From positions 87,501 through 151,500 of the forward strand of contig CAUYUJ010019362.1 of the NCBI GenBank assembly GCA_963575745.1: a DNA stretch of 64,000 nt, read 5' to 3'. The number at the start of each line of letters is the position of its first letter. The stretch's first letter is position 1. A program made the position numbers and the translations under genes. The DNA comes from Prorocentrum cordatum (Eukaryota; Sar; Dinophyceae; Prorocentrales; Prorocentraceae). Below are positions 2,872 through 53,413 of the stretch, one piece after another. Under the pieces are notes generated by a model that made no database searches, was not told the origin of the DNA, and saw nothing but the letters and a program-made list of their open reading frames with translations.

Positions 2872-3064
2872 CCGAGACGTCGGAGGATCGCGCCGCATCG
2901 CCGATGCCACCGGTGGTGCAGCACAAGGTGGAGCCCGACTTGCTCCACGTCGACGTCGCCGATGCACCACACCGCCGATGTCGCCAGTGCATCGCCGATA
3001 CATCGCCGATGTATCGGCGCGATCCTCCGACCCTATCTGCTCCCGCCCTATCTAGGAGGCCTCG
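2872..3064. mobile_element. Fold-back element family GGAGGATC, copy 1
   Basis: Inverted repeat: GTCGGAGGATCGCGCC at the left, and its near-complement GGCGCGATCCTCCGAC at the right, followed by CTATCTGCTCC and GGAGGCCTC. The interior consists of GCATCGCCGATG units, themselves partly palindromic. A second, better preserved copy lies at 47453-47692. Confidence 0.75.
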
Positions 3065-6941: not shown

Positions 6942-7105
6942 TGAAAGTCGGGCATGTCCCTCCACAGGAGGAACCTTCAAACATAGTAAACAAGTAGTTT
7001 GGGGAGGATGTGTTTGTGTTGTTTTGTTATGTCATGTTTGAGCATTTTAAGATTGTTTTTGCTTGTCTTCCAACTGCCGCCGGAAGGAGGACATGCCCGA
7101 CCTCA
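6942..7105 (+). mobile_element. F1 TIR element, copy 1 (164 bp)
   Basis: Left end TGAAAGTCGGGCATGTCCC and right end GGACATGCCCGACCTCA are inverted copies. The flanks CTCTGACG (6934-6941) and CTCTGGCG (7106-7113) form an 8-bp target duplication with one mismatch. It shares both termini with 11724-11880 and with intron 1 of the hydrolase gene at 47841-47961. It has no coding capacity, as expected of a non-autonomous element. An 8-bp TSD is compatible with hAT-like or P-like transposition, but the transposase is unknown. Confidence 0.85.
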
Positions 7106-7854: not shown

Positions 7855-8005
7855 CGAGACGATCGAAATGGGTACAGGAGGAATGCGTACGAAGACTGAC
7901 CGCAATGCTTGTCCATTTGGAACAGGACTCGCTGTCGGCGTCGCCGCGGAAGTTGTCCACGTGAGATAGAAGGCCGCCTGCCAAACAGAGGCCGCTGTCG
8001 GGTGT
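7855..8005 (+). mobile_element. Family GGACGYCCGAA, diverged copy
   Basis: Matches the element at 45587-45793: CGAAATGGGTACA at the left, then GGAACAGGACTCGCTGTC, a GCCGCCTGCCAAACAG segment and GGCCGCTGTCGG. The right terminus is lost into the CTCC tract that follows. Confidence 0.6.
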
Positions 8006-11723: not shown

Positions 11724-11880
11724 TGAAGTCGGGCTTGTCCCTCCACAGCAGGAACATGTTCAACATGGTAAAACAATACTCTGGGGACGATGGTTTGACT
11801 ACTGTTGCATATGTGCTGGATATGTTTTGAGCCTTGTCCGTCGTCCCAAATCCGCCTGTAGGAGGACATGCCCGACCTAA
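11724..11880 (+). mobile_element. F1 TIR element, copy 2 (157 bp)
   Basis: Begins TGAAGTCGGGC and ends GCCCGACCTAA. The 8-bp flank CTCTAGTG is perfectly duplicated (11716-11723 and 11881-11888). Element plus one TSD is 165 bp, a multiple of three. Removing it fuses the open frame on the left to about 100 nt of open frame on the right, so it may also act as an intron, although the flanking protein is not recognised. Confidence 0.85.
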
Positions 11881-14617: not shown

Positions 14618-16025
14618 ATCCTGTGGTGTTGGGTCCTCGTTTTGAAGAATCGGTCCCCGCGTTCCTTGTCCTCCTCCTCCTCCTCCTCCTCCTCCTTCTC
14701 CTCGCCCTCCTCCCTCCAGGGTTCGCATGCCTCCCCACCACCCATTTCGGCACACCCCTCACACGCTTCGTGGCCCCATAGGGAGCTCCACCGATGGCCC
14801 CAATGGCTGCGTTCGCATGCCCCCCCACCACCAATTTCGGCACACCCCTCACACGTTTCGTGGCCCCATAGGGAGCTCCACCGAAGGCCCCAGTGGCTGC
14901 GTTCGCATGCCTCCCCACCACCCATTTCGGCACCCATAGGGGGGCTCCACCGAAGGCCCCACTGGTTGCGGTCGCATGCCTCCCCACCACCCATTTCGGC
15001 ACACCCCTCACACGTTTCGTGGCCCCATAGGGGGCTCCACTGAAGGGCCCCAATGGCTGCGTTCGCATGCCCCCCCCACCACCTATTTCGGCACACCCCT
15101 CACACGTTTGTGGCCCCATAGGGATCTCCACCGAAGGCCCCAGTGGCTGCGTTCGCATGCCTCCCCACCACCCATTTCGGCACACCCATCACACGTTTCG
15201 TGGCCCCATAGGGAGCTCCACCGAAGGCCCCAGTGGCTGCGTTCGCATGCCTCCCACCGCCCATTTGGGCACACCCCTCACACGCTTCGTGGCCCCATAG
15301 GGAGCTCCACCGAAGGCCCCAGTGGCTGCGTTCGCATGCCTCCCCACCACCCATTTCGGCACACCCCTCACACGTTTCGTGGCCCCATAGGGAGCTCCAC
15401 CGAAGGCCCCAGTGGCTGCGTTCGCATGCCTCCCCACCACCCATTTCGGCACACCCCTCACACGTTTCGTGGCCCCATAGGGAGCTCCACCGAAGGCCCC
15501 AGTGGCTGCGTTCGCATGCCTCCCCACCACCCATTTCGGCACACCCCTCACACGTTTCGTGGCCCCATAGGGAGCTCCACCGAAGGCCCCAGTGGCTGCG
15601 TTCGCATGCCTCCCCACCACCCATTTCGGCACACCCCTCACACGTTTCGTGGCCCCATAGGGAGCTCCACCGATGGCGGCACACCCCTCACACGCTTCGT
15701 GGCTAGGGAGCTCCACCGAAGGCCCCAGTGGCTGCGTTCGCATGCCTCCCCACCACCCATTTCGGCACACCCCTCACACGTTTCGTGGCCCCATAGGGAG
15801 CTCCACCGAAGGCCCCAGTGGCAGGGTCCGCATGCCTCCCCACCACCCATTTCGGCACACCCTTCACACGTTTCGTGGCCCCATAGGGAACTCCACCGAA
15901 GGCCCCAGTGGCGCGGTGCCTATGAGAAGAGGGGCCTAGTTTGCGTGCCCCCTCCTTCGTCTCATATCCGCGCGGTACTCGCAGCTGCATATGGTTGGGT
16001 CCTTCGCCAGGCTAATTTTTCGGCC
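14618..16025 (+). mobile_element. Composite element 1 (leader, CTCC tract, 90-bp satellite, terminal segment)
   Basis: Starts with the leader CCCAACCATCCTG (and GTGTTGGGTCC, which forms a hairpin with it), then CTCC repeats, then the 90-bp satellite. It ends with CATATGGTTGGGTCC and CTTCGCCAGGCTAATT. Composites 2 and 3 share the same order of parts. Exact boundaries are uncertain by about 20 bp; the two ends share the inverted motif CCCAACCAT / ATGGTTGGG. No protein is encoded. Confidence 0.7.
14728..15915 (+). repeat. 90-bp satellite, array 1
   Basis: About thirteen monomers with the consensus order TTTCGGCACACCCCTCACAC, GTTTCGTGGCCCCATAGGG, AGCTCCACCGAAGGCCCCAG, TGGCTGCGTTCGCATGCC, TCCCCACCACCCA. 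One monomer (about 14930) and one (about 15670) carry deletions. Because 90 is divisible by three, both strands stay open for hundreds of codons; these frames are artefacts. Confidence 0.95.
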
Positions 16026-16817
16026 CTGACCATGGACCACGCGCCACCAATGGTGGCTGGCAGACCACCAATGGTGGCTGGCAGACCACCGATGCTATCA
16101 GAGAAGGGCATGACAGGCCACCAACGGTGGCTGGCAAACCTGCTGCGCACCAAACAATTATCCGACATGCTGCGGTGCGACACCCGCGACATGAAAGCCG
16201 ACCCCGTTACGTAGGGAATTACCATCCAGGAATTCACCCTCAGCACCATGGATGGGAAGCCCGCCCACGCACAACCGACGGTGCGGTTGGGCGGGGAGTT
16301 GCACAAGAAAGCGGCGCCGAGCTTACATCGCAACGACTTGAACGAGGATATCGACAACGCAGGCCAAGTTACCTTTCGCTGCGTTCCTTCGTCTCATATC
16401 CGCGCGGTACTCGCAGCTGCATATGGTTGGGTCCTTCGCCAGGCTAATTTTTCGGCCCTGACCATGGACCACGCGCCACCAATGGTGGCTGGCAGACCAC
16501 CAATGGTGGCTGGCAGACCACCGATGCTATCAGAGAAGGGCATGACAGGCCACCAACGGTGGCTGGCAAACCTGCTGCGCACCAAACAATTATCCGACAT
16601 GCTGCGGTGCGACACCCGCGACATGAAAGCCGACCCCGTTACGTAGGGAATTACCATCCAGGAATTCACCCTCAGCACCATGGATGGGAAGCCCGCCCAC
16701 GCACAACCGACGGTGCGGTTGGGCGGGGAGTTGCACAAGAAAGCGGCGCCGAGCTTACATCGCAACGACTTGAACGAGGATATCGACAACGCAGGCCAAG
16801 TTACCTTTCGCTGCGTT
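15954..16817 (+). repeat. Exact 432-bp tandem duplication
   Basis: Copy 1 is 15954-16385 and copy 2 is 16386-16817. Peptides translated from both copies are identical over 131 residues, so the event is recent. Each copy holds the composite-element end segment and tandem ACCAATGGTGGCTGGCAG units. No gene is recognised. Confidence 0.9.
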
Positions 16818-20868: not shown

Positions 20869-22931
20869 CGAGCAACAATTAGCCTGGCGAAGGACCCAAC
20901 CATATGCAGTTGAGAGTACCGCAATTGTGAATATCTTCTTCGGTGGCGCTCCCTATGGGGCCACGAGCCGTATGAGGGGTGTGCCGAAATGCGTGGCAGT
21001 GTACACAACACGAACGAAGACGATAGGTCCGAATATGAAAGCTTGAGCGCGTGCGAGTCGGATCGCGAGCGAGTCTGATTATGAATGAATCTGCGCGCGA
21101 TTGATTCTATTCGCATGAATGCGTGCATGGATACGCCCAGTGTAAATGTATGTATACGACTGTGAACAGTTTGGGTCTGCGTGACTCTCGGTACTCGTGA
21201 CTCTGAGCGTCGCCTCTGCAGGGGGCTTCCCTGGGAACCCCGACGGCAGCGCCCGCGCGCCGCGACGCCCATGTCGGCACGCCACACACCTGGTGTGCGG
21301 GACGCATGCGGACGGCAGCACTGGGGCCTTCGGTGGAGCTCCCTGTGGGGCCACGAAACGTGTGAGGGGTGTGCCGAAATGGGTGTGCGGGACGCATGCG
21401 GACGGCAGCCATGGGGCCTTCGGTGGAGCTCCCTGTGGGGCCACGAAACGTGTGAGGGGTGTGCCGAAATGGGTGTGCGGGACGCATGCGGACGGCAGCC
21501 ATGGGGTGGAGCTGGGGCCACGAAACGTGTGAGCCGAAATGGGTGCGGGACGCATGCGGACGGCAGGGGGCCTTCGGTGGAGCTCCCTACGAAACGTGTG
21601 AGGGGTGTGCCGAAATGGTGTGCGGGACGCATGCGGACGGCAGCCATGGGGCCTTCGGTGGAGCTCCCTGGGTGTGCCGTGCGTGTGAGGGGTGTGCCGA
21701 AATGGGTGTGCGGGACGCATGCGGACGGCAGCACTGGGGCCTTCGGTGGAGCTCCCTATGGGGCCACGAAACGTGTGAGGGGTGTGCCGAAATGGGTGTG
21801 CGGGACGCATGCGGACTGGGGCCTTCGGTGGAGCTCCCTATGGGGCCACGAAACGTGTGAGGGGTGTGCCGAAATGGGTGTGCGGGACGCATGCGGACGG
21901 CAGCCATGGGGCCTTCGGTGGAGCTCCCTATGGGGCCACGAAACGTGTGAGGGGTGTGCCGAAATGGGTGTGCGGGACGCATGCGGACGGCAGCACTGGG
22001 GCCTTCGGTGGAGCTCCCTGTGGGGCCACGAAACGTGTGAGGGGTGTGCCGAAATGGGTGTGCGGGACGCATGCGGACGGCAGCACTGGGGCCTTCGGTG
22101 GAGCTCCCTGTGGGGCCACGAAACGTGTGAGGGGTGTGCCGAAATGGGTGTGCGGGACGCATGCGGACGGCAGCCATGGGGCCTTCGGTGGAGCTCCCTA
22201 TGGGGCCACGAAACGTGTGAGGGGTGTGCCGAAATGGGTGTGCGGGACGCATGCGGACGGCAGCACTGGGGCCTTCGGTGGAGCTCCCTGTGGGGCCACG
22301 AAACGTGTGAGGGGTGTGCCGAAATGGGTGTGCGGGACGCATGCGGACGGCAGCCATGGGGCCTTCGGTGGAGCTCCCTACGAAACGTGGGGCCACGAAA
22401 CGTGTGAGGGGTGGGGCCACGAAACGTGCCGAAATGGGTGCGGTGCGCGGCATGCGGAGCGGGTGTGACTGGGTGTGCCGCATGCGGACGGCAGCACTGG
22501 GGCGGTGGAGCTCCCTGTGGGGCCACGAAACGTGTGAGGGGTGTGCCGAAATGGGTGTGCGGGACGCATGCGGACGGCAGCCATGGGGCCTTCGGTGGAG
22601 CTCCCTGTGGGGCCACGAAACGTGTGAGGGGTGTGCCGAAATGGGTGTGCGGGACGCATGCGGACGGCAGCACTGGGGCCTTCGGTGGAGCTCCCTGTGG
22701 GGCCACGAAACGTGTGAGGGGTGTGCCGAAATTGGTGTGCGGGACGCATGCGGACGGCAGCCATGGGGCCTTCGGTGGAGCTCCCTATGGGGCCACGAAA
22801 CGTGTGAGGGGTGTGCCGAAATGGGTGTGCGGGACGCATGCGGACGGCAGGAGGAGAGGAGGAGGAGCAGAGGAGGTGGGACGCGGGGCGCTGTCTCTTC
22901 AAAACGAGGACCCAACACCACAGGATGGTTG
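20869..22931 (-). mobile_element. Composite element 2 (inverted)
   Basis: In reverse orientation: leader at 22893-22931 (CTTCAAAACGAGGACCCAAC, then CACAGGATGGTTGGG), a GGAG tract, the 90-bp array at 21290-22852, an internal region at 20990-21290 and the terminal segment near 20880 (TAGCCTGGCGAAGGACCC, AACCATATGCAG). The internal and terminal regions are shared, inverted, with 53817-54190 in composite 3. In this copy no helicase exon lies between array and internal region. Confidence 0.75.
21290..22852 (-). repeat. 90-bp satellite, array 2 (inverted)
   Basis: About seventeen monomers, the reverse complement of arrays 1 and 3. Two variants alternate irregularly, with CAGCCATGGGG or CAGCACTGGGG at the same position. 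Disrupted monomers occur at 21500-21700 and 22380-22510. Confidence 0.95.
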
Positions 22932-22992
22932 GGAAAAAACACGCACGAAACCGACGAATGCACGGGAAGAAATGGACGTCCGAGCGACGGCA
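22932..22992 (+). mobile_element. F7 TIR element, right half
   Basis: ACGCACGAAACCGACGAATG and ATGGACGTCCGAGCGACGG match the right halves of the intact F7 copies. Completes the left half at 20805-20868. Confidence 0.75.
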
Positions 22993-24708
22993 AGCTCTGC
23001 AGCCTCCGCGGGACCCCGAACAGGGCTCATTTCGAGTCTTGCGATCCAGTTCGATTCGGTTTCGATGGCTCCCGATGCCGATGTGATTCGACTCCGGATT
23101 CCGATGTGGGCTCCGACCTCGTAGTGGAGGCCCCCAAGCCTGCCGACCTCTGCCGATTCGACTTTTCCCGACTGGGCTGCCGATTTCCGCCGATCCGATT
23201 CATTTCGATCGCCGATCCGACGTATCGGCTCGATTCTCGGGGCGCCTGCCCGAAGAGTGGAGGTCGCTCTCAGGATTGGGCGGCTCGCGTGGCGTCAGGA
23301 GCCGGAGCCCGCGCCGTCCGGGCAGGAGCCTACGATCCTCTACGCAGGTGGGCATCTCTCTTGTCCTGCCACAGGGGTCCCCATCCAGAAGCGGCTGGAG
23401 CGTTTACACACCCGCCTGCCACAGTGGGTGCAGAAATCTTCCCAGCCGCCCTCTGGGGCAGGCGCACCCGGTGGCGCAGCCGTTCATGGTGCCCTGCCCG
23501 CCGAGGGAAGGCCGAGCCCGCTGCTGAGTTAACGGGGCCCGCATGTCCGCATGTCTTCCAAGCCTCTGGCTGCTGCACTACCCATCGGTCGTTGAAAGCG
23601 AGTATTCTTGGATTCCCAGATTCCAATCCACTTCAGGCGCCTTGCTACTTCAATTGTCGATTGGCTTCACACTGTTCCGTCATCCTTAGGGGGCGGGCGG
23701 ACACCCAATCTATGTTCAACGCCTTCCTACTTCATGTGTCTACCTACTTCTTCCGACCGATGGCTATGGGCGCGAACATTCGCACGCAGGCAGTCTGCCA
23801 TCGTCAGGTGCCCGCGTGAGTTCTCGCGCAGGTGCCCTCGTTCTTCAAACGTTGTTGCGCGTGCCGCGCCGGTGGCATGCGCAATGCACCCTCGAAAGGT
23901 CGTCGCACCGTCGTGCACAAGACCCCTATCTGGTCGTCGCTCATGCGTCCTGCGGTGTGTGCGTGTGTGCGTGTGTGGCACCTTGCTGCTTTCAGAAGCG
24001 GCGTGCGCCTCCGCGGTTGCGCTCTGTCGTCGACGATCAGATACCCATTTCTTTGATGTTGTTTAGGCCCCAGAGCTGAGACTACAGGTGCACCCGCGCG
24101 ATCAGCGTGCGACGGCGGCGTTGGGCGACAGGAACTCATGGACATCGTACCGTCTTCTGAGCACTATCGATCGCGATGTAGTTTGGAGCCGTCTGCTTTG
24201 ATTCGAACAGTCGTGTTGCCAGTCATGGGAGCGAGCCATCGAATACTCTTTTACCATCGTAAGTGAGCCCAGTGGCATGGTGAGGAAGCGACAGACGACG
24301 ACGAGGACGACGACGGCGACGACGATGTCAACGAACCAGCGGACAGCATTGGCGTGAGCGTATCGGCGGAAGCGCAAGCATGAGCAGGAGTGGGAGGAGC
24401 ACGGGCGGCAAGGGAGCGGACTCCAGAGCAGCAAACGGGAGGGAGGGAGGCTGCAGGTCGGGAGGTTGTGGGAGCAGGGTTGTCCAGCGTCCATGGTTCG
24501 TTCGCATCGGCTGCGTCGCAGCCGATGGCGCTCGGCCGGTTCGGTTCTGCAAGTCGTCGAGTCGTTCTTGCGCCGCTGCGCCCTCCAGGCTTCGCGCGGC
24601 CGATCAGTTTCGGTAGGCTTCGGTTTCGCTGGCGGCTCCGTCTGTCTTCGGTCATGCTATATCGCCGTGGACGGCCTTACGGGGAGAGGCCGGCCACCTC
24701 CACACCTC
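22993..24708. other. Interval with CGATTCG-type repeats, no gene resolved
   Basis: At about 23030-23250 GATTCGA and GATCCGA motifs recur. The rest is unique GC-rich sequence without recognisable domains. Confidence 0.4.
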
Positions 24709-24878
24709 GGGGGTGGACAGAGCCCCCAACAGTGACACGTCGATTAGTGAATTTTCCGTTTTCGGTTCTCGAGAGGGCGCCGTGGCCGTTATTTTCCAGG
24801 CTTGCGCCCGCCAGGTTTGGGCCTCAGGTCGTTTTCACTAAACCACGTTTTACTAAAGGGGGGTCTGTCCATCCCCGA
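24709..24878 (+). mobile_element. TIR element family GGGGGTGGACAG, copy 1 (170 bp)
   Basis: Left end GGGGGTGGACAGAGCCCCC and right end GGGGGGTCTGTCCATCCCC are inverted copies. The copy at 44691-44859 is more than 90 percent identical by eye. The flanks ACACCTC and ACACCCC could be a 7-bp TSD with one mismatch. Confidence 0.85.
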
Positions 24879-28183: not shown

Positions 28184-28205
28184 TCCGTAGCCATTTTGGC
28201 TCAAG
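28184..28205 (+). other. Genomic copy of the complete 22-nt dinoflagellate spliced leader
   Basis: The 22 bases beginning TCCGTAGCCATTTTGGC and ending TCAAG match the conserved dinoflagellate spliced leader exactly (first base U is one of the permitted variants). In dinoflagellates this sequence is added to mRNA 5' ends by trans-splicing. Here it lacks the donor and intron that would follow in a spliced-leader RNA gene, so it marks the 5' end of a reverse-transcribed, reinserted mRNA. Confidence 0.9.
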
Positions 28206-28220
28206 CCATTTTGGCTCAGG
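28206..28220 (+). other. Truncated second spliced leader (relic)
   Basis: CCATTTTGGCTCAGG directly follows the full leader and equals its last 15 bases with one change (AAG to AGG). The AG inside the leader can serve as a trans-splice acceptor, so a previously retroposed leader becomes truncated to exactly this length in the next cycle. Two successive leaders therefore record at least two rounds of retroposition. Confidence 0.85.
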
Positions 28221-31696: not shown

Positions 31697-31890
31697 TCGG
31701 GCCGGGCGAAAGGGGGGGATTGGGAAAGGGGGGGTTAGAAAATTTGCTGCATGCAGCTGGTTTCGGCCTCACCGAGGGGCCCATTCCTGGATACATGGCC
31801 GCCTCCGGCGCCGGGAGGCGCCGGGAAAATCAGCTACGTGAGCTGATTCTCAAACCCCCCCTTTGCTACCCCCCCTTTCGCCCGACCCGA
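31697..31890 (+). mobile_element. TIR element family TCGGG, copy 1 (194 bp)
   Basis: Starts TCGGGCCGGGCGAAAGGGGG and ends CCCCCCTTTCGCCCGACCCGA, an inverted pair of about 35 bp including the poly-G/poly-C stretches. TCCTC is duplicated on both sides (31692-31696 and 31891-31895). The interior has two small palindromes, CTGCATGCAG and AGCTACGTGAGCT. Further copies are at 42589-42771 and, diverged, at 40372-40565. Confidence 0.85.
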
Positions 31891-40371: not shown

Positions 40372-40565
40372 TCTGAGAGGGCGAAAGGAGTGGATTCGCA
40401 AAGTGCGGTCAAGAATTCTGCTGCATGCGCCTGGTTTAGGCCCCGCCGAGGAGCCACAGTCATCGACACATGGCCGCCTCGGGCGCGGGAAGGCGTCGGA
40501 AACAACAGCTGCCTGCAACCGATTCGCTTCCCCCCCTTTCTCATACGCCCTCATTTTCGCATCAC
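40372..40565 (+). mobile_element. TIR element family TCGGG, diverged copy
   Basis: Retains GGGCGAAAGG at the left, GCTGCATGCGCCTGGTTTAG, ACACATGGCCGCC and a right segment CCCCCCCTTTCTCATACGCC. Clearly older than the copies at 31697 and 42589. Confidence 0.6.
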
Positions 40566-42588: not shown

Positions 42589-42771
42589 TCCGAACGAAAG
42601 GGGGGGGCTAGGGAAAGGGGGGGTTACGAAATATCAGCTGCATGCAGCTGGTTTCGGCCCCGCTGCCAGGCCCATCCCTCGATACATGGGCGCCTCCCGG
42701 CGCCGGGAAAATCAGCTACGTGAGCTGATTCTCACCCCCCCTTTGCTATCCCCCCCTTTCGCCCGGCCCGA
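42589..42771 (+). mobile_element. TIR element family TCGGG, copy 2
   Basis: CGAACGAAAGGGGGGG at the left, and CCCCCCTTTCGCCCGGCCCG at the right. The interior is almost identical to 31697-31890, including CAGCTGCATGCAGCTGG and AAATCAGCTACGTGAGCTG. Confidence 0.85.
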
Positions 42772-44440: not shown

Positions 44441-44690
44441 CTTGGGAGCCGGCAAGGACAGATGGGCGCGTGGGTGGGGTGGGGGGGGGGGAACAGGAGG
44501 AGCCCCATCCAGAGAAGAGCGATGTCACGGCCGACGTGCCGTTCGACGACCATCGCGAGGCCCAGCCCAGTTCGAGCTCCGAGATGACGGCCAAAAGCGG
44601 CCAGCTGGAGCAGATCAGCATTCTCGGCCAGATAGACTAGATCGCACGTCACGCGTTGCCTCGTAGCCTTCCCGGCCCGCGAAGGCAGTC

Positions 44691-44859
44691 GGGGGTGGAC
44701 AGAACCCCCAACAGTGACACGTCGATTACTGAATTGTCCGTTTTCGGTTCTCGAGAGGGCTCCGTGGCCGTTATTTTCCAGGCTTGCGCCCTCCAGGTTT
44801 GGGCCTCAGGTCGTTTTCACTAAACCACGTTTTACTAAAGGGGGGTCTGTCCATCCCCG
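44691..44859 (+). mobile_element. TIR element family GGGGGTGGACAG, copy 2 (169 bp)
   Basis: GGGGGTGGACAGAACCCCC and GGGGGGTCTGTCCATCCCC termini. Flanked by AGGCAGTC and AGGCAGAG, six of eight matching. Nearly identical to the copy at 24709-24878, so this family may have moved recently. Confidence 0.85.
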
Positions 44860-45586
44860 AGGCAGAGCACCTGCTGTGGCTGAGGCCCTCCTGCGAGCTG
44901 TAGTCTGGAGCCCCGATCGTCGGCCCTGCGCCCTGAGGGAGACCAAACAGACTGCAGGTTTCCCGGAGGCACGTCGTCCCAACTACGATCGGTCAAGGGC
45001 GCAAAAAACGCCCCTACCCTGGTTTGCGAGGCGCTGTGCGCTGAACCTCCTGTGGGCTGACAGGATAAACCCTGCGTGATGTGCCGCGTCCTGGCGGCTT
45101 TCTAGGCTCTGGGGGTTCCCAGGAGGTTTACAGACCACGAACTTGCAACCCAGGGTAGGGTCTTTTTATTCCATCCCTCAATTGAGGGAGACCAAACAAA
45201 CTGCAGGGTTCCCGGAGACACGTCGTCCCAACTACAATCGGGGAGCGGAAGAAACATTACAGTGGGGGCACTCCATGTCACAGCAAGCTGTATCTCTCGA
45301 CAGTGGATGGCAAGGACGCCATTCATATGCTGCTGCATTGAATGGAACAGTCAAGAGCTGGATCGCTGAAACAGAACAAGAACACGACTACGAGCTGAAA
45401 GCTAAAGGGTAAATGCTGGGCACAAGCAGTAGTTAGTTACAGTTGATCATGTACGCCCCCGACGGCGTCTCCCTTCTCCCCTCCCCTCCTTGTCCCGTGC
45501 TTGTTGCTTTGCGGCTCTCCCCCCTATGTCGGGTCCTGTCTGCCAGTCCTCTCGCGCTCTTCTCTTCCTCCCACCTCCTCCACTCT

Positions 45587-45793
45587 GGACGCCCGAATTG
45601 GGTACGGAAAGAATGGGTACAATGCCCAACAGCAATTCCAGTTCATTTTGAACAGGATCCGCTGTCCGCGCCGCCGCGGCCTGTGTCCATTCGAGACAGA
45701 ATGCCGCTTGCCCAACAGCGGCCGCTGTTGGCTTGGGACAACATTTGTTCTTGGGCATTGTACCCATTCGTTCTGTACCCATTTCGGACGTCC
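45587..45793 (+). mobile_element. TIR element family GGACGYCCGAA (207 bp)
   Basis: The left end GGACGCCCGAATTGGGTAC and the complement of the right end (GGACGTCCGAAATGGGTAC) match over about 40 bp, including GAATGGGTACAATGCCCAA. The interior has palindromic GCCCAACAGC and GCGGCCGCTGTTGG. A diverged copy is at 7855-8005. Confidence 0.8.
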
Positions 45794-46299
45794 AAATCCA
45801 CCTGCGGCGCTTTCCCTCCGTTCGCGAGGCCCTGTCGGGGACGAGCGCCAGGGGGCCCGGGAGACGCTCCGTGGGGGAGGGGGGGGCGGCAGGAGGGGCG
45901 GGGGCCGAGGAACGAGGAGAGCCATCGCCCCGCGGCGCGCGCGTGCGCGCGCGGGGCCTGGCGGCCCCCGGCGAAGTGCCGGGATGCGGCGGGTGCCGCC
46001 GCCGCCTCTCTGCTGTCCCTGGTTGCCCTGCCCTCTGGGGAGGGGGTGCTCGGGCTGGGCCAGTGGCCCCGGCCCGCCCCCCCCCCCCCCCTCGCACGGA
46101 TTGTCTTCTAGGGAGCTCCAGCCCCCGGCGCAGGGCCCCCCTTTGCGGGCCAGCGGGGCCAGATGGGGCGCCCCAGGCAGGCCGGGGGTGTCCCCAGAGA
46201 GACGCTCGGCCCTGCACACATACCTCCCCGCAGGGGCCCGGATGCTCGTTAGCTACGCCTCCACACTGACCCCGAAACGCTCAGTACTGTTTTCCTTTA

Positions 46300-47452: not shown

Positions 47453-47692
47453 CAGGCCTCCTTCGTAGATGGGGTCGGAGTAGATGATGTCGGAGGATCT
47501 CGCCGCATCGCCGATGCATCGGCGATGCGGCTCTATGTGGCGTCCGATTTGCCTCAATTCGACGTCGCCGATGCATCGCCGACGTCGACGATGCATCGCT
47601 GGTGCATCGCCGATGCATCGCCGATGCATCGGCGATGCGGCGAGATCCTCCGACCCCATCTGCTCCGACCCCACCTGGGAGGCCTCTACAGG
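47453..47692. mobile_element. Fold-back element family GGAGGATC, copy 2
   Basis: Arms of roughly 60 bp: AGGCCTCC, GATGGGGTCGGAGTAGATG, TCGGAGGATCTCGCCGCATC at the left, mirrored by GATGCGGCGAGATCCTCCGA, CCCCATCTGCTCCGACCCC and GGAGGCCT at the right. The interior is GATGCATCGCC units. The right end lies only about 35 bp before the ATG of the hydrolase gene, so it may sit in that gene's 5' region. Confidence 0.8.
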
Positions 47693-47726: not shown

Positions 47727-49463
47727 ATGGCTCAAGACATGCTGACGCTCCTCGCTGCATTCGTGCCCCTGGCCGCCGGCGCGCCCTGGACGACGTGTGG
47801 CGGGCTGTCGCCCGCATACAACCGCACCGCCTGCCCAGCCTTAAGTCGGGCATGCCCCTCTACAGGAGGAATATTCAAAAAGAGTCCAAATATAGTACGG
47901 GGCGAGTTTTCAAATATTCGTCCGTCCAAAATCCGCCTGTAGGAGGACACGCCCGACCTAAGCCCAGCCACCGCCACCTGCGCGCCGCAAAAGTGGATGC
48001 CGAGCGAGGGCAACTGGGGGTGCTGCCCGTATCCGCGCGCCGTCTCGTGCGGCGACTACACTTGCTGCCCTTTCGGGGGCGGCCAAGAGGGGGGGTGAGG
48101 GCGAGGGCGGGGGTGGATGTCATGGCGGGGGCCATGATATCTCCCCAGATTTCATGGCGTTCCTTCTTGTTTTCAATGCATCCCCAGCCCCCCCCCTCTG
48201 GGCCGCGCACATGCCGCTGGCCATGATTTCCCCCCCCCCCCCCCTCTTGGGCACCCCCCTCTTGGCCACCCCCGACCCTTCCGGCACGACTTGCCAGAAC
48301 GCGGGCGAGTCTTATGGTGTGGTGTCTTCGTGCGTTGACTCAAGCGGGAGCGTCGCACCTCCAGGCAGCACAGGCGGCGGGCAGCAGGTTTGCAAGACGG
48401 GCGGCCCATTACCGCTCAGCACCGAGATGCCGAACGTGGTCCTTCTGGGCGACTCCGTCTCCATCGGCTATTTCCCCAAGGTGGCTGCGCTGATGAATGG
48501 CACCGCGCTGGTGCAGCACTCCCCGTGGGGCGGCGACGGCGGGGCCGAGGAGACGCGCTATGGCTGGGAGTGCCTGGATTTCCTCCTCGCCGCGCCCGAC
48601 GGCACGCCCCAGGTGCCGGACGTGCTGTACTACAATTTCGGACTGCACAACCTGGACGGCCGGACGGCGCCAGTCGGCGGCGAGCGAGGGGGGGAACTGA
48701 GAAGGCGCGGGCCTTCTCAGAAGGCTCGGAAGTCCCCCGGCCTTCTAAGACATTTTCTGAGCCTTCCCCGAGAACACGGAAAACTTGTCAGAAGGCAGGA
48801 GGATTTTTGAGAAGCCCCGCCGCCTTCTGAGAAGGCCTTCTCCTCCTCAGTCCCCCCCCTCGCTCGCCGCCGAGCCAGGGCAGGCCGGCCCGATCGCAGA
48901 GTACGCGCCCTATCTCGAGCGAATAACCGAGAAGCTCGTAAGCTGGGCAGCGGCCGGCGGGACCAAGCTGCTGTTTGGCATCACGACCCCCGAGATGTGC
49001 GACGCCGCGCTCGACGCCGTCGTCCGCGGCAACAACGCGGCGGCAGCGGCGGTGATGAGAAAGCACGGCGTGCCGACCGTTGACCTGCACGCCGCGGTGG
49101 TCGGCCAGTGTGGCGCGTCGCCCAACCCCCGGTGCTTCAACCAGTCGGCGTGCTTTTGCCCGCACTGCCCGCAGGCCGACGGAGTCGGCTACGAGTTCTT
49201 AGCCCTGAGAAGGAAAAGCTGCACAAACGTAAATTTGTTGAGGTCGTCGTTGATCCCTTGGAGCCGCGCTGGCCCCTGTCGCGGAGGTGCCGCAAGGGGT
49301 CCCGGCGCCGATCCGGGTGATCCACGCGGGCCTCCAGGAGTGTACCTTTGTGCCGCCGTTCCTGACTCTGTTAGCGGAGCACGTGCTGGTGCCAGCCATC
49401 TCGGAGCTCATCTCGAGCTCCCAGAGGAGAGGTTGGCTTGACATGGATTTGGTTCTGGTGTGA
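47727..49463 (+). CDS. Secreted SGNH/GDSL-type hydrolase, five exons
   Basis: Exons 47727-47840, 47970-48072, 48281-48673, 48879-49203 and 49376-49463 join to 340 codons plus TGA. Residues 1-18 form a signal peptide (MAQDMLTLLAAFVPLAAGA). A cysteine-rich, granulin-like segment follows (GNWGCCPYPRAVSCGDYTCC, then PSGTTCQNAGESYG). The hydrolase domain shows block I NVVLLGDSVSIGY with the nucleophile Ser, a central LYYNFGLHNLDGR in the place of the GxND block, and CPQADGVGYEFLA near the end, where the family normally has DxxH; the His is not in its usual place, so activity is uncertain. Such enzymes hydrolyse esters or acyl groups; the substrate cannot be predicted. Boundaries were chosen because the protein is continuous when each intron is removed with one copy of its flanking direct repeat. 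Splice sites are not GT-AG. Transcript data would settle the exact ends. Confidence 0.8.
47841..47961 (+). mobile_element. Intron 1 of the hydrolase gene: F1 element, copy 3 (121 bp)
   Basis: Starts TTAAGTCGGGCATGCCCC and ends GACACGCCCGACCTAA, with inverted termini shared with 6942-7105 and 11724-11880. GCCCAGCC is duplicated exactly at 47833-47840 and 47962-47969. Removing element plus one TSD joins TACPA to TATCAPQKW. The 3' AG falls inside the TSD (CCCAG). There is no GT donor at the matching position. Confidence 0.85.
48073..48275 (+). mobile_element. Intron 2 of the hydrolase gene: TIR element (203 bp)
   Basis: Left TCGGGGGCGGCCAAGAGG and right CCTCTTGGCCACCCCCGA are inverted with one mismatch. 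CCCTT is duplicated at 48068-48072 and 48276-48280. Excision gives CCPSGTTC, restoring a cysteine pattern. The interior is C/T- and G-rich with a GGCCATGATATC/ATGATTTC pair. No AG lies at the 3' boundary, so splicing would have to be entirely non-canonical. Confidence 0.75.
48674..48873 (+). mobile_element. Intron 3 of the hydrolase gene: TIR element (200 bp)
   Basis: Left TCGGCGGCGAGCGAGGGGGG and right CCCCCCTCGCTCGCCGCCGA are inverted over about 28 bp, continuing as AACTGAG and CTCAGT. GCCAG is duplicated at 48669-48673 and 48874-48878. Excision joins DGRTAP to GQAGPIAEY in frame. The interior has several GAAGGC / GCCTTCT repeats that can fold back. Confidence 0.85.
49204..49370 (+). mobile_element. 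Intron 4 of the hydrolase gene: degenerate TIR element (167 bp)
   Basis: The left end CCTGAGAAGGAAAAGCTGCA resembles the complement of the right end (CAGAGTCAGGAACGGCGGCA) and continues with CAAACGTA / CAAAGGTA, a degenerate inverted repeat. TTAGC is duplicated at 49199-49203 and 49371-49375. Excision joins GYEFLA to EHVLVPAISEL, the expected C terminus of an SGNH enzyme. Confidence 0.65.
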
Positions 49464-51225: not shown

Positions 51226-52015
51226 CTATTAGGATGCACTTGGCATACTACCCCGACTTCACGTGCCAGGGGGCACGGTGCGGATGTTTGATGTCCCTGA
51301 CATGTCACACTATCCGCACGGCAGATGTCATGGATCTTCCATGCGGCCGGCGAGGCACAAGCGGGCGCGTTGTCGACGCCGCTGAGAAAGACTATGAAAG
51401 ATTTGATGAAGTGCCTCCGCCTTTAGTGCACCGCGCGTTGAAGACGAGGGAAGCGGGTCTCTGGATGGACTCGGCGAGAGGATCCGCGGAGATACGCGGG
51501 GATGCTCATCTCCATTCGTTTTGTCGCGTTGGGCGTTGTGCAGTTTCATCAGTTGAGCGTTCGTGCGCCAGTCTAATGTGACCTGGGACGTCACCTACCA
51601 CGCACTAACAACGCAACTACCCAGCCTCTTTGGCACTGGGGGGGAGCATTGTGGGGGTCTGTCCCCTTCCCCTGCTCCACGTCGTTCGGACAGCGCTGTG
51701 TGACCTCTCTTCTGTGCAATACGTCTCGCTTTAGTTTCCAGATGTCGTGCACAACGTACGCAAACAGCAATGTTTTCCAATCATTCCAGATCAGCCATTG
51801 GTGTGAATTTCGTGTCGTTGGAAGCAGCCATCATTTGTGCAAGCATGTGGCGGTATTCTTGCTAGTGGTCTTGATTCCCAACCATCCTGTGGTGTTGGGT
51901 CCTCGTTTTGAAGAGACGGTGCCCCGCGTTCTCCTTCCTTCTTTCCTTCCTTCCTTCCTCCCGCTGCCTCCTCCCCCCTCCCATCATCATCATCATCATC
52001 ATCATCAACACCCAA

Positions 52016-52935
52016 TTCGGCACACCCCTCACACGTTTCGTGGCTCCATAGGGAGCTCCACCGAAGGCCCCAGTGCCCGCGGCCGCATGCGTCACCCACA
52101 CCCATTTCGGCACACCCCTCACACGTTTCGTGGCTCCATAGGGAGCTCCACCGAAGGCCCCAGTGCCCGCGGCCGCATGCGTCACCCACACCCATTTCGG
52201 CACACCCCTCACACGTTTCGTGGCTCCATAGGGAGCTCCACCGAAGGCCCCAGTGCCCGCGGCCGCATGCGTCACCCACACCCATTTCGGCACACCCCTC
52301 ACACGTTTCGTGGCTCCATAGGGAGCTCCACCGAAGGCCCCAGTGCCCGCGGCCGCATGCGTCACCCACACCCATTTCGGCACACCCCTCACACGTTTCG
52401 TGGCTCCATAGGGAGCTCCACCGAAGGCCCCAGTGCCCGCGGCCGCATGCGTCACCCACACCCATTTCGGCACACCCCTCACACGTTTCGTGGCTCCATA
52501 GGGAGCTCCACCGAAGGCCCCAGTGCCGCGGCCGCATGCGTCACCCACACCCATTTCGGCACACCCCTCACACGTTTCGTGGCTCCATAGGGAGCTCCAC
52601 CGAAGGCCCCAGTGCCCGCGGCCGCATGCGTCACCCACACCCATTTCGGCACACCCCTCACACGTTTCGTGGCTCCATAGGGAGCTCCACCGAAGGCCCC
52701 AGTGCCCGCGGCCGCATGCGTCACCCACACCCATTTCGGCACACCCCTCACACGTTTCGTGGCTCCATAGGGAGCTCCACCGAAGGCCCCAGTGCCCGCG
52801 GCCGCATGCGTCACCCACACCCATTTCGGCACACCCCTCACACGTTTCGTGGCTCCATAGGGAGCTCCACCGAAGGCCTCAGTGCCGCCGCCCGCATGCG
52901 TCACCCCCACCCATTTCGGCACACCCCCCGCATTT
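52016..52935 (+). repeat. 90-bp satellite, array 3
   Basis: Ten monomers with the start CACACCCCTC at 52021, 52111, 52201, 52291, 52381, 52471, 52560, 52650, 52740 and 52830. They are almost identical; one has a single-base deletion near 52526. The end of the array lies about 10 bp before the splice acceptor of the next exon. Confidence 0.95.
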
Positions 52936-52947
52936 CTCGCACGGCAG

Positions 52948-53413
52948 GGTCATCACCACGGTGGCGTGCCAGGGGCGCACCATGCGCGAAGGCGACGGGG
53001 CGGGGGAACGGCGCTCCGGGGGCGGCCAGACCTCCGGGGCGCGAGCAGTCCGCGGCCAGACCATCTCTCGGTCCTGTGGACTCTCGCCCTGGGCCGTCGG
53101 CTGCCCGGCGCGCTGCTCCCTCGGTCGACGTCGCCCAGGCGTGATCCTGGATTGCGGCCGCCACGAGGTAGGGAACGGCAAGAAGGAGGACGACGACTGG
53201 TGGCTGGAGCTCTACGTGCTGCTCTCGCGCGCCACGCGCCACGAGGACCTCCTGCTCATGCGGGCGCCGCGCATCGAGTTCTTCCTGGCAGGGCCGCCGC
53301 AGGGCTTGCGGAAGCAGCTGGAGCAGTTTGCGGCGCGCACGAAGCGGCGCAGGAGGGAAGCGACGGCCCTCGCCAGGGAGCTCGGCTTCACCGAGTTCAT
53401 CCGCGAGGCCTGA
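52948..53413 (+). CDS. C-terminal exons of a Pif1/RecD-like superfamily 1 helicase (partial)
   Basis: Exon 52948-52991 (after CACGGCAG) encodes VITTVACQGRTMRE, like helicase motif V with its conserved QG. Exon 53139-53413 completes it: GVILDCGR, then WWLELYVLLSRATRHEDLLL, matching motif VI (the YVxLSRAT-x-xEDL pattern), then a helical tail ending EFIREA and TGA. The intron 52992-53138 is GC-AG, with AGGCG repeated at both junctions. Motifs I-IV are not in the window upstream, and the preceding intron would contain the 90-bp array. Pif1-like helicases unwind DNA; related domains also occur in Helitron transposons. Confidence 0.7.

Follow-up and report, generated by a model that had tools for sequence, protein, structure and literature searches.

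Four element-like introns flanked by exact direct repeats in a granulin-SGNH hydrolase gene of Prorocentrum cordatum

The gene and its encoded protein

The analysed stretch of Prorocentrum cordatum DNA (64,000 nt, hereafter the window) carries on its plus strand a gene at 47727-49463, composed of five exons and four insertions, each of which lies between two copies of a short exact repeat: GCCCAGCC at 47833/47962, CCCTT at 48068/48276, GCCAG at 48669/48874 and TTAGC at 49199/49371. The features of the gene are the following:

47727-47832, plus strand: exon 1, likely start ATG at 47739 (restored frame, alignment of relatives)
47728-47736, plus strand: TGGCTCAAG, identical to the 3' end of the spliced leader, a possible truncated relic (4 matches in the window, 0.66 expected)
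47833-47840, plus strand: direct repeat GCCCAGCC, copy 1, 8 bp (exact match)
47841-47961, plus strand: element of intron 1, with inverted repeat TTARGTCGGGC...; its family makes 8-bp duplications (inverted-repeat tests, genome copies)
47962-47969, plus strand: direct repeat GCCCAGCC, copy 2 (exact match)
47962-48067, plus strand: exon 2, granulin (restored frame, Pfam)
48068-48072, plus strand: direct repeat CCCTT, copy 1 (exact match)
48073-48275, plus strand: element of intron 2, with inverted repeat TCGGGGGCGGCCAAGAGGGG; its family makes 5-bp duplications (window scan, genome copies)
48276-48280, plus strand: direct repeat CCCTT, copy 2 (exact match)
48276-48668, plus strand: exon 3, GDS motif (restored frame, Pfam, alignment of relatives)
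48669-48673, plus strand: direct repeat GCCAG, copy 1 (exact match)
48674-48873, plus strand: element of intron 3, with inverted repeat TCGGCGGCGAGCGAGGGGGG; its multi-copy family makes 5-bp duplications (window scan, genome copies; absent from P0006)
48874-48878, plus strand: direct repeat GCCAG, copy 2 (exact match)
48874-49198, plus strand: exon 4 (restored frame, alignment of relatives)
49199-49203, plus strand: direct repeat TTAGC, copy 1 (exact match)
49204-49370, plus strand: element of intron 4, a worn palindrome with relatives in a dispersed family (palindrome tests, relatives; absent from P0006)
49371-49375, plus strand: direct repeat TTAGC, copy 2 (exact match)
49371-49463, plus strand: exon 5 (restored frame, alignment of relatives)

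Deletion of 47833-47961, 48068-48275, 48669-48873 and 49199-49370, that is, of each element together with one copy of its repeat, leaves 1023 nt in one open frame that encodes 340 amino acids without an internal stop. The first-pass annotation had claimed that such a deletion restores the frame and a family-consistent protein, and this holds: the product is a granulin and SGNH hydrolase protein that matches its family and is collinear with its relatives. In Pfam the restored protein matches Granulin above the cut-off (5.8e-8) and Lipase_GDSL_2 below it (1.9e-4). The joined exons have a GC content of 0.84 at third codon positions, and the four introns, 129-208 nt long, contain stops in 9 of their 12 reading frames.

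A search of 5.8 billion proteins returned at least 171 relatives at E<=0.001 among the best 8000 candidates scored. Fifteen relatives that are 64-77% identical, aligned in addition to the JGI sequence P0006 (see below), are collinear with the restored protein at junctions 2, 3 and 4 where they cover them; at junction 1 some are one residue longer, and the agreement there is within one residue. One sequence matching the granulin-SGNH family, P0023 (EukProt), combines Pfam granulin and enoyl-CoA hydratase domains in one chain. The gene had been annotated from 47727, which stands for the span of the gene; the ATG at 47739 is the likelier start codon, because the signal-peptide region of the relatives begins near the second methionine. 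The ATG at 47727 overlaps the spliced-leader-like TGGCTCAAG.

A codon scan trained on the granulin-SGNH gene did not reveal a second clear gene in the window, ten chosen window segments gave only Pfam matches below the cut-off, and neither Rfam families at gathering score nor tRNA genes were found in the window. The GC content of 2-kb stretches of the window ranges from 48 to 68% and is mostly near 60%.

Structure of the four elements

Inverted repeats in the terminal 45 nt were compared with those of 2000 equally long stretches placed at random in the window, which gave p=0.004, 0.0005, 0.0005 and 0.0135 for introns 1-4. A palindrome test on the whole elements against 1000 random window stretches gave 0.06, 0.029, 0.003 and 0.007, of which the value for intron 1 is not significant. 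In introns 1-3 the inverted repeats begin right at the direct repeat. Intron 4 is the weaker case: its direct repeat is exact as well, its inverted repeat begins 7 nt inside the element, and it forms a 153-bp imperfect palindrome (65%). RNA folding brings the ends together in all four introns, with z values of -5.2, -6.2, -11.2 and -5.1 for introns 1-4.

A scan of the window for exact 5-bp repeats combined with inverted repeats, blind by design to introns 1 and 4, returned introns 2 and 3 among 60 raw rows that are mostly simple repeats, and zero rows in five Markov shuffles. Another scan, for 4-bp repeats with complex arms, produced 22 rows as against 0-4 in ten shuffles; the four introns are absent from it and it is uninformative on them.

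The annotation also held that several families had made introns in this one gene. The four sequences do differ, but introns 2 and 3 have TCGG...CCGA ends and 5-bp duplications in common and, judged by these, may belong to one superfamily. The same ends are present in other elements of the window, such as those at 24707-24878 and 44689-44860, two 172-bp members of a TCGGGG-ended family that are 97% identical and have the duplications ACACC and GGCAG.

Further inverted-repeat families are each represented in the 64 kb of the window by two or three related copies: one at 31697-31890, 42595-42771 and 40379-40539, one at 45584-45796 and 7858-8001, and one at 47467-47676, just upstream of the granulin-SGNH gene, and 2876-3043. 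It also contains a 90-bp unit repeated in tandem arrays of either orientation (14627-16031 and 51897-53005, inverted at 21151-22982) and a 100% identical 300-bp direct repeat (15953-16252 and 16385-16684).

Copies of the elements in the genome

The assembly searched comprises 4,128,499,153 bases in 21,875 contigs. The search of one repeat scores the best 40 candidates; the first-look lists, whose entries are unconfirmed as copies, hold 6843 candidates for the whole gene, 1070 for intron 1, 2337 for intron 2 and 45 for intron 4. The intron 1 family occurs at at least 39 other places in the genome. Intron 2 has near end-to-end matches at at least 39 other places, and intron 3 at at least 33, where the matches are 84-88% identical. 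The expectation that copies with the same termini exist was borne out for introns 1-3, and about half or more of the fetched copies have duplications of their own. Among 29 copies of the intron 1 family fetched from the 39 other places, 13 are flanked by an 8-bp duplication with at most one mismatch, five of these exact, whereas the offset control gave 0/1102; in the test the ends could shift by as much as 2 nt on either side, a tolerance not granted to the control, and with no shift 10 of the 29 qualify. Two of the intron 1 copies, L076 and L078, resemble one insertion copied twice. Two members of this family lie in the window itself:

11724-11880, plus strand: second member of the intron 1 family, with the exact 8-bp duplication CTCTAGTG (inverted-repeat and palindrome tests)
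6942-7105, plus strand: third member of the intron 1 family, with 7 of 8 positions matching in the duplication CTCTGACG/CTCTGGCG (inverted-repeat and palindrome tests)

Exact 5-bp duplications flank 15 of the 22 copies fetched from the 33 places listed for intron 3. For intron 2 they flank two of five and then eight of 15 further copies (10/20 in all), a sample of five loci representing six places, since locus L051 holds two copies and was counted once, plus 15 further places of the 39. The offset controls gave 3/1350 for intron 3 and the first intron 2 set together, and 3/240 for the second intron 2 set. No duplication is visible in 16 of 29 copies of intron 1, 10 of 20 of intron 2 and 7 of 22 of intron 3. 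A chance origin of the direct repeats was considered and is ruled out by the copy and duplication tests with their offset controls.

For intron 4 only diverged relatives were recovered: the best 40 of 45 candidates were scored, one of which is intron 4 itself and most of which are partial. Five relatives align over nearly the whole length and together form a palindrome family, and by eye two of the relatives have 5-bp duplications of their own (AGCTG in L014, GCAAT in L026). Introns 1-3 thus clearly belong to mobile families, and the same very probably holds for intron 4. We attempted to estimate the age of intron 4 from how far its palindrome has decayed and dropped this, because the palindromes of its relatives are nearly as worn; its age is therefore not used as evidence.

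Among the 29 intron 1 copies L070 is one further candidate for an element that serves as an intron in another gene. A coding segment spans the site weakly in L084, L086 and L092; in the others the best coding segment stops short of the element. Of seven copies of introns 2 and 3 that were checked, L003 alone has a coding segment reaching across the element, and this one is weak.

Removal from the message

Probably, in our judgement, the granulin-SGNH gene is a working gene in which four inserted MITE-like elements are each removed as an intron together with one copy of the duplication. Four non-autonomous DNA transposons, MITE-like and of four sequence families, would have entered the coding sequence, with target duplications of 8 bp for one family and 5 bp for the others, and the mRNA would lose each element and exactly one duplication copy. 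The removal would take place on the RNA level, where the stem of the inverted repeats would join the two repeat copies, so that structure rather than the usual donor dinucleotide would guide the cutting.

The sequence P0006 (JGI, 219 aa, encoded on a 1112-bp contig) matches residues 122-340 with 100% identity and runs across junctions 3 and 4, which shows that a form without introns 3 and 4 exists. The annotation had expected related sequences to lack the introns at exactly one repeat copy, and the relatives and P0006 agree with this where they cover the junctions. About 452 nt of the P0006 contig lie outside the coding part and might still contain intron 2. When the first 141 residues were used as query, six proteins were returned, none above 71% identity and none showing introns 1 and 2 removed in P. 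cordatum; for these two introns the one argument is collinearity with the family, which suggests their removal.

The genome protein search met the granulin-SGNH gene once, the other matches being 32-40% identical. As this search found no second close copy of the gene, P0006 represents RNA from which introns 3 and 4 were spliced, or else an allele that never received them. The same search bears on a further explanation, in which the elements are excised from the DNA of expressed gene copies and not from RNA. A precise excision of DNA would likewise lose the element and one repeat copy, but no intron-free copy was found in the 4.13-Gb assembly, and we regard this explanation as exceedingly improbable. 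We know of no precedent in dinoflagellates for elimination of such elements at the DNA level.

Intron boundaries

An exact repeat allows the splice position to slide within it, and every such register was examined: GT-AG, GC-AG and GA-AG are absent from all exact-repeat registers of all four introns. If removal is exact, the boundaries therefore lack the usual dinucleotides. The spliceosome might instead use a nearby GT-AG, GC-AG or GA-AG pair and yield a protein slightly different from the restored one, since frame-keeping GN-AG pairs are present within 30 nt of each intron (15, 4, 30 and 22 for introns 1-4). GT, GC and GA donors make up 99.9% in the published P. cordatum table (PMC10666404), and at L070 (G000:C14092:354044-354151) an element of the intron 1 family inside a coding-like exon has a GC-AG solution at GCAGG. 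All of the nearby pairs, however, alter the protein. The nearest alternatives for introns 3 and 4 remove or add residues and are contradicted by P0006, and that for intron 2 changes SGTTC to FGGG and loses a conserved cysteine. Only the alternative for intron 1 is mild, a GT-AG pair at 47845-47967 that adds two residues (+LT) in a variable stretch and may be the one used. We thus consider conventional splicing at such neighbouring sites very unlikely for this gene. As a single case, L070 suggests that insertion at AGG-containing sites would give conventional introns, and insertion elsewhere unconventional ones.

When the same elements were placed at all sites of the CDS, a GN-AG pair arose at 13, 11, 11 and 3% of the sites, so that about 87-97% of exon sites in the CDS offer no GN-AG after insertion. 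The chance that four of four introns lack one is 0.67, and their lack of GN-AG is thus what unfiltered insertion would produce; on this comparison the four surviving introns look unfiltered for splice dinucleotides. An NC-AG reading is possible in three of the four introns (0.016, in a post hoc comparison), which fits a relaxed spliceosome better than a mechanism based on structure only; the corresponding value for at least three introns with any AG acceptor is 0.20. A spliceosome with a relaxed first donor base may accordingly be at work.

The absence of GN-AG from the exact-repeat registers at all four sites would also be in line with a broken or polymorphic gene, in which the insertions are ordinary and unspliced and P0006 derives from an allele or strain without them. 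Any target-duplicating insertion that is removed with its duplication restores the frame automatically, and P0006 may be DNA or RNA. Yet four separate insertions have accumulated while the 1023 nt show no other stop or frameshift, residues 122-340 are identical to P0006, and no other close copy was found in the genome that could carry the function. The divergence of the intron 4 element points the same way, a weak point as its age could not be dated. A broken or polymorphic gene is in our view unlikely, and we retain the reading as a working gene with elements removed as introns. It starts from what is observed at the locus, namely elements, duplications, related copies, a restored family protein and exact-repeat registers free of GT-AG, GC-AG and GA-AG.

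History of the gene

Published genes of P. cordatum contain on average 9.8 introns per gene of 4.7 kb (PMC10666404). The granulin-SGNH gene has no introns other than the four elements, which suggests that it was once intronless, probably as a reverse-transcribed copy. Divergent paralogues lack these introns where they align and have no stops across the corresponding positions: L042 and L043 are free of stops over residues 40-324 (positions of introns 2-4), L046 over residues 114-313 (introns 3 and 4), and L041 and L047 over residues 22-147 and 151-325, with a change of frame between the two pieces. In a separate tblastn on L042 only residues 96-324 aligned.

An exact spliced-leader relic lies about 0.5 kb upstream of the matched part of L042 and L043, on the same strand, which would mark a reverse-transcribed gene. 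The relics were recognised by the dinoflagellate spliced-leader sequence, both for the 21-mer and for TGGCTCAAG. In the granulin-SGNH gene TGGCTCAAG stands directly before the likely start codon; the 9-mer also occurs at other, unrelated places. An exact 21-nt spliced leader is present in the window at 28185-28205 (no matches in 100 shuffles), and it is followed by a second, partial one (TTTTGGCTCAGG), so that 28185-28220 represents tandem relics of reverse-transcribed sequence. Exact relics, some of them in tandem, were seen in the fetched loci L008, L021 and L096 in addition to L042 and L043. The likeliest history is that of an intronless gene, cDNA-derived or originally so, that later took up four elements.

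Comparison with known introns

Introners of core dinoflagellates were reportedly treated by Roy et al. 2023. Mendez et al. 2015 is said to deal with dinoflagellate splice sites and may be the earlier work that described intron boundaries of dinoflagellates as identically repeated. Such a report is cited in the paper on Amoebophrya (PMC7789003).

The closest match to the four introns is found in Amoebophrya A25/A120, whose introner elements are described as non-canonical, with an inverted repeat at either end (Farhat et al. 2021, PMC7789003) and without consistent dinucleotides (PMC7789003). As in the gene studied here, direct repeats extend over the boundary and a hairpin could join the exon ends (PMC7789003). 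The inverted repeats of A25 start with TTA and two purines (PMC7789003), and intron 1 has TTAAG/TTAGG, a likeness that could be due to chance. The direct repeats are 3-5 nt long in Amoebophrya (PMC7789003), in contrast to 8 bp at intron 1 and 5 bp at introns 2-4 here. Because the repeat of intron 1 exceeds 3-5 nt, we class the four introns with introners only and say of the Amoebophrya type that they would work like it, in a core dinoflagellate and in a gene otherwise free of introns. Furthermore, the host genome has 4 Gb, unlike that of Amoebophrya, in which U1 was reported as not detected (PMC7789003), and unlike the Amoebophrya introners most of the fetched copies lie outside recognisable exons.

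Introners of core dinoflagellates are described as DNA-transposon-like, with duplications and inverted repeats, each genome harbouring many families (PMC11453091; PMC9860276 for an example from Symbiodinium). The four introns share the duplications and inverted repeats; the signature of insertion accompanies similar copies spread through the genome, represented for intron 4 by diverged relatives only. In contrast to the present case, where the exact registers hold none, those introners use GT, or more rarely GC or GA, donors with AG, supplied by the element or by the duplication (PMC11453091, PMC9860276). For P. cordatum itself, introns with inverted repeats at both ends are reported to be enriched (Dougan et al. 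2023, PMC10666404). Mapping and gene finding in that study were adapted to GC and GA donors, and its table gives only GT, GC and GA (PMC10666404), so that introns like these four would presumably be missed in its gene models. Among titles and abstract openings, mostly of papers outside subscription, we found no introners without GN-AG ends in Prorocentrum.

Nonconventional introns of euglenids have variable borders, ends paired in the RNA and direct repeats, and a MITE origin has been proposed for them (PMC4770533, PMC6221363). They resemble the four introns in the paired ends and the direct repeats, but belong to an unrelated lineage. In euglenids the pairing is at +4..+6/-8..-6, mostly as CAG/CTG (PMC4770533, PMC6221363).

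Conclusions

The presence of element-like introns in the granulin-SGNH gene is confirmed, and their reading as introns made by transposons is well supported. The proposed extension of the idea of introners from Amoebophrya fits the data, although the novelty is narrower than claimed, as multi-family introners have been reported for core dinoflagellates and inverted-repeat introns for P. cordatum (PMC11453091, PMC10666404). It is modest in kind and would become important if exact removal without GN-AG ends were borne out by RNA.

Tentatively, and as a possibility we hold to be somewhat short of even, core dinoflagellates might possess, beside the GN-AG spliceosome, a structure-guided removal from RNA of inverted-repeat transposons at their target duplication, whatever the dinucleotides. 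Almost any exonic insertion would then become an intron at once, annotation that demands GN-AG would hide such introns, and intronless retrogenes would refill only in this way.

If RNA confirms the removal, non-canonical introns made by transposons would reach beyond the parasite Amoebophrya into a free-living dinoflagellate with a large genome, and gene models restricted to GT, GC and GA would miss a class of introns. The small gene makes four different insertions comparable within one transcript, and would thereby allow one to test directly whether such introns are defined by hairpins and not by splice-site letters.
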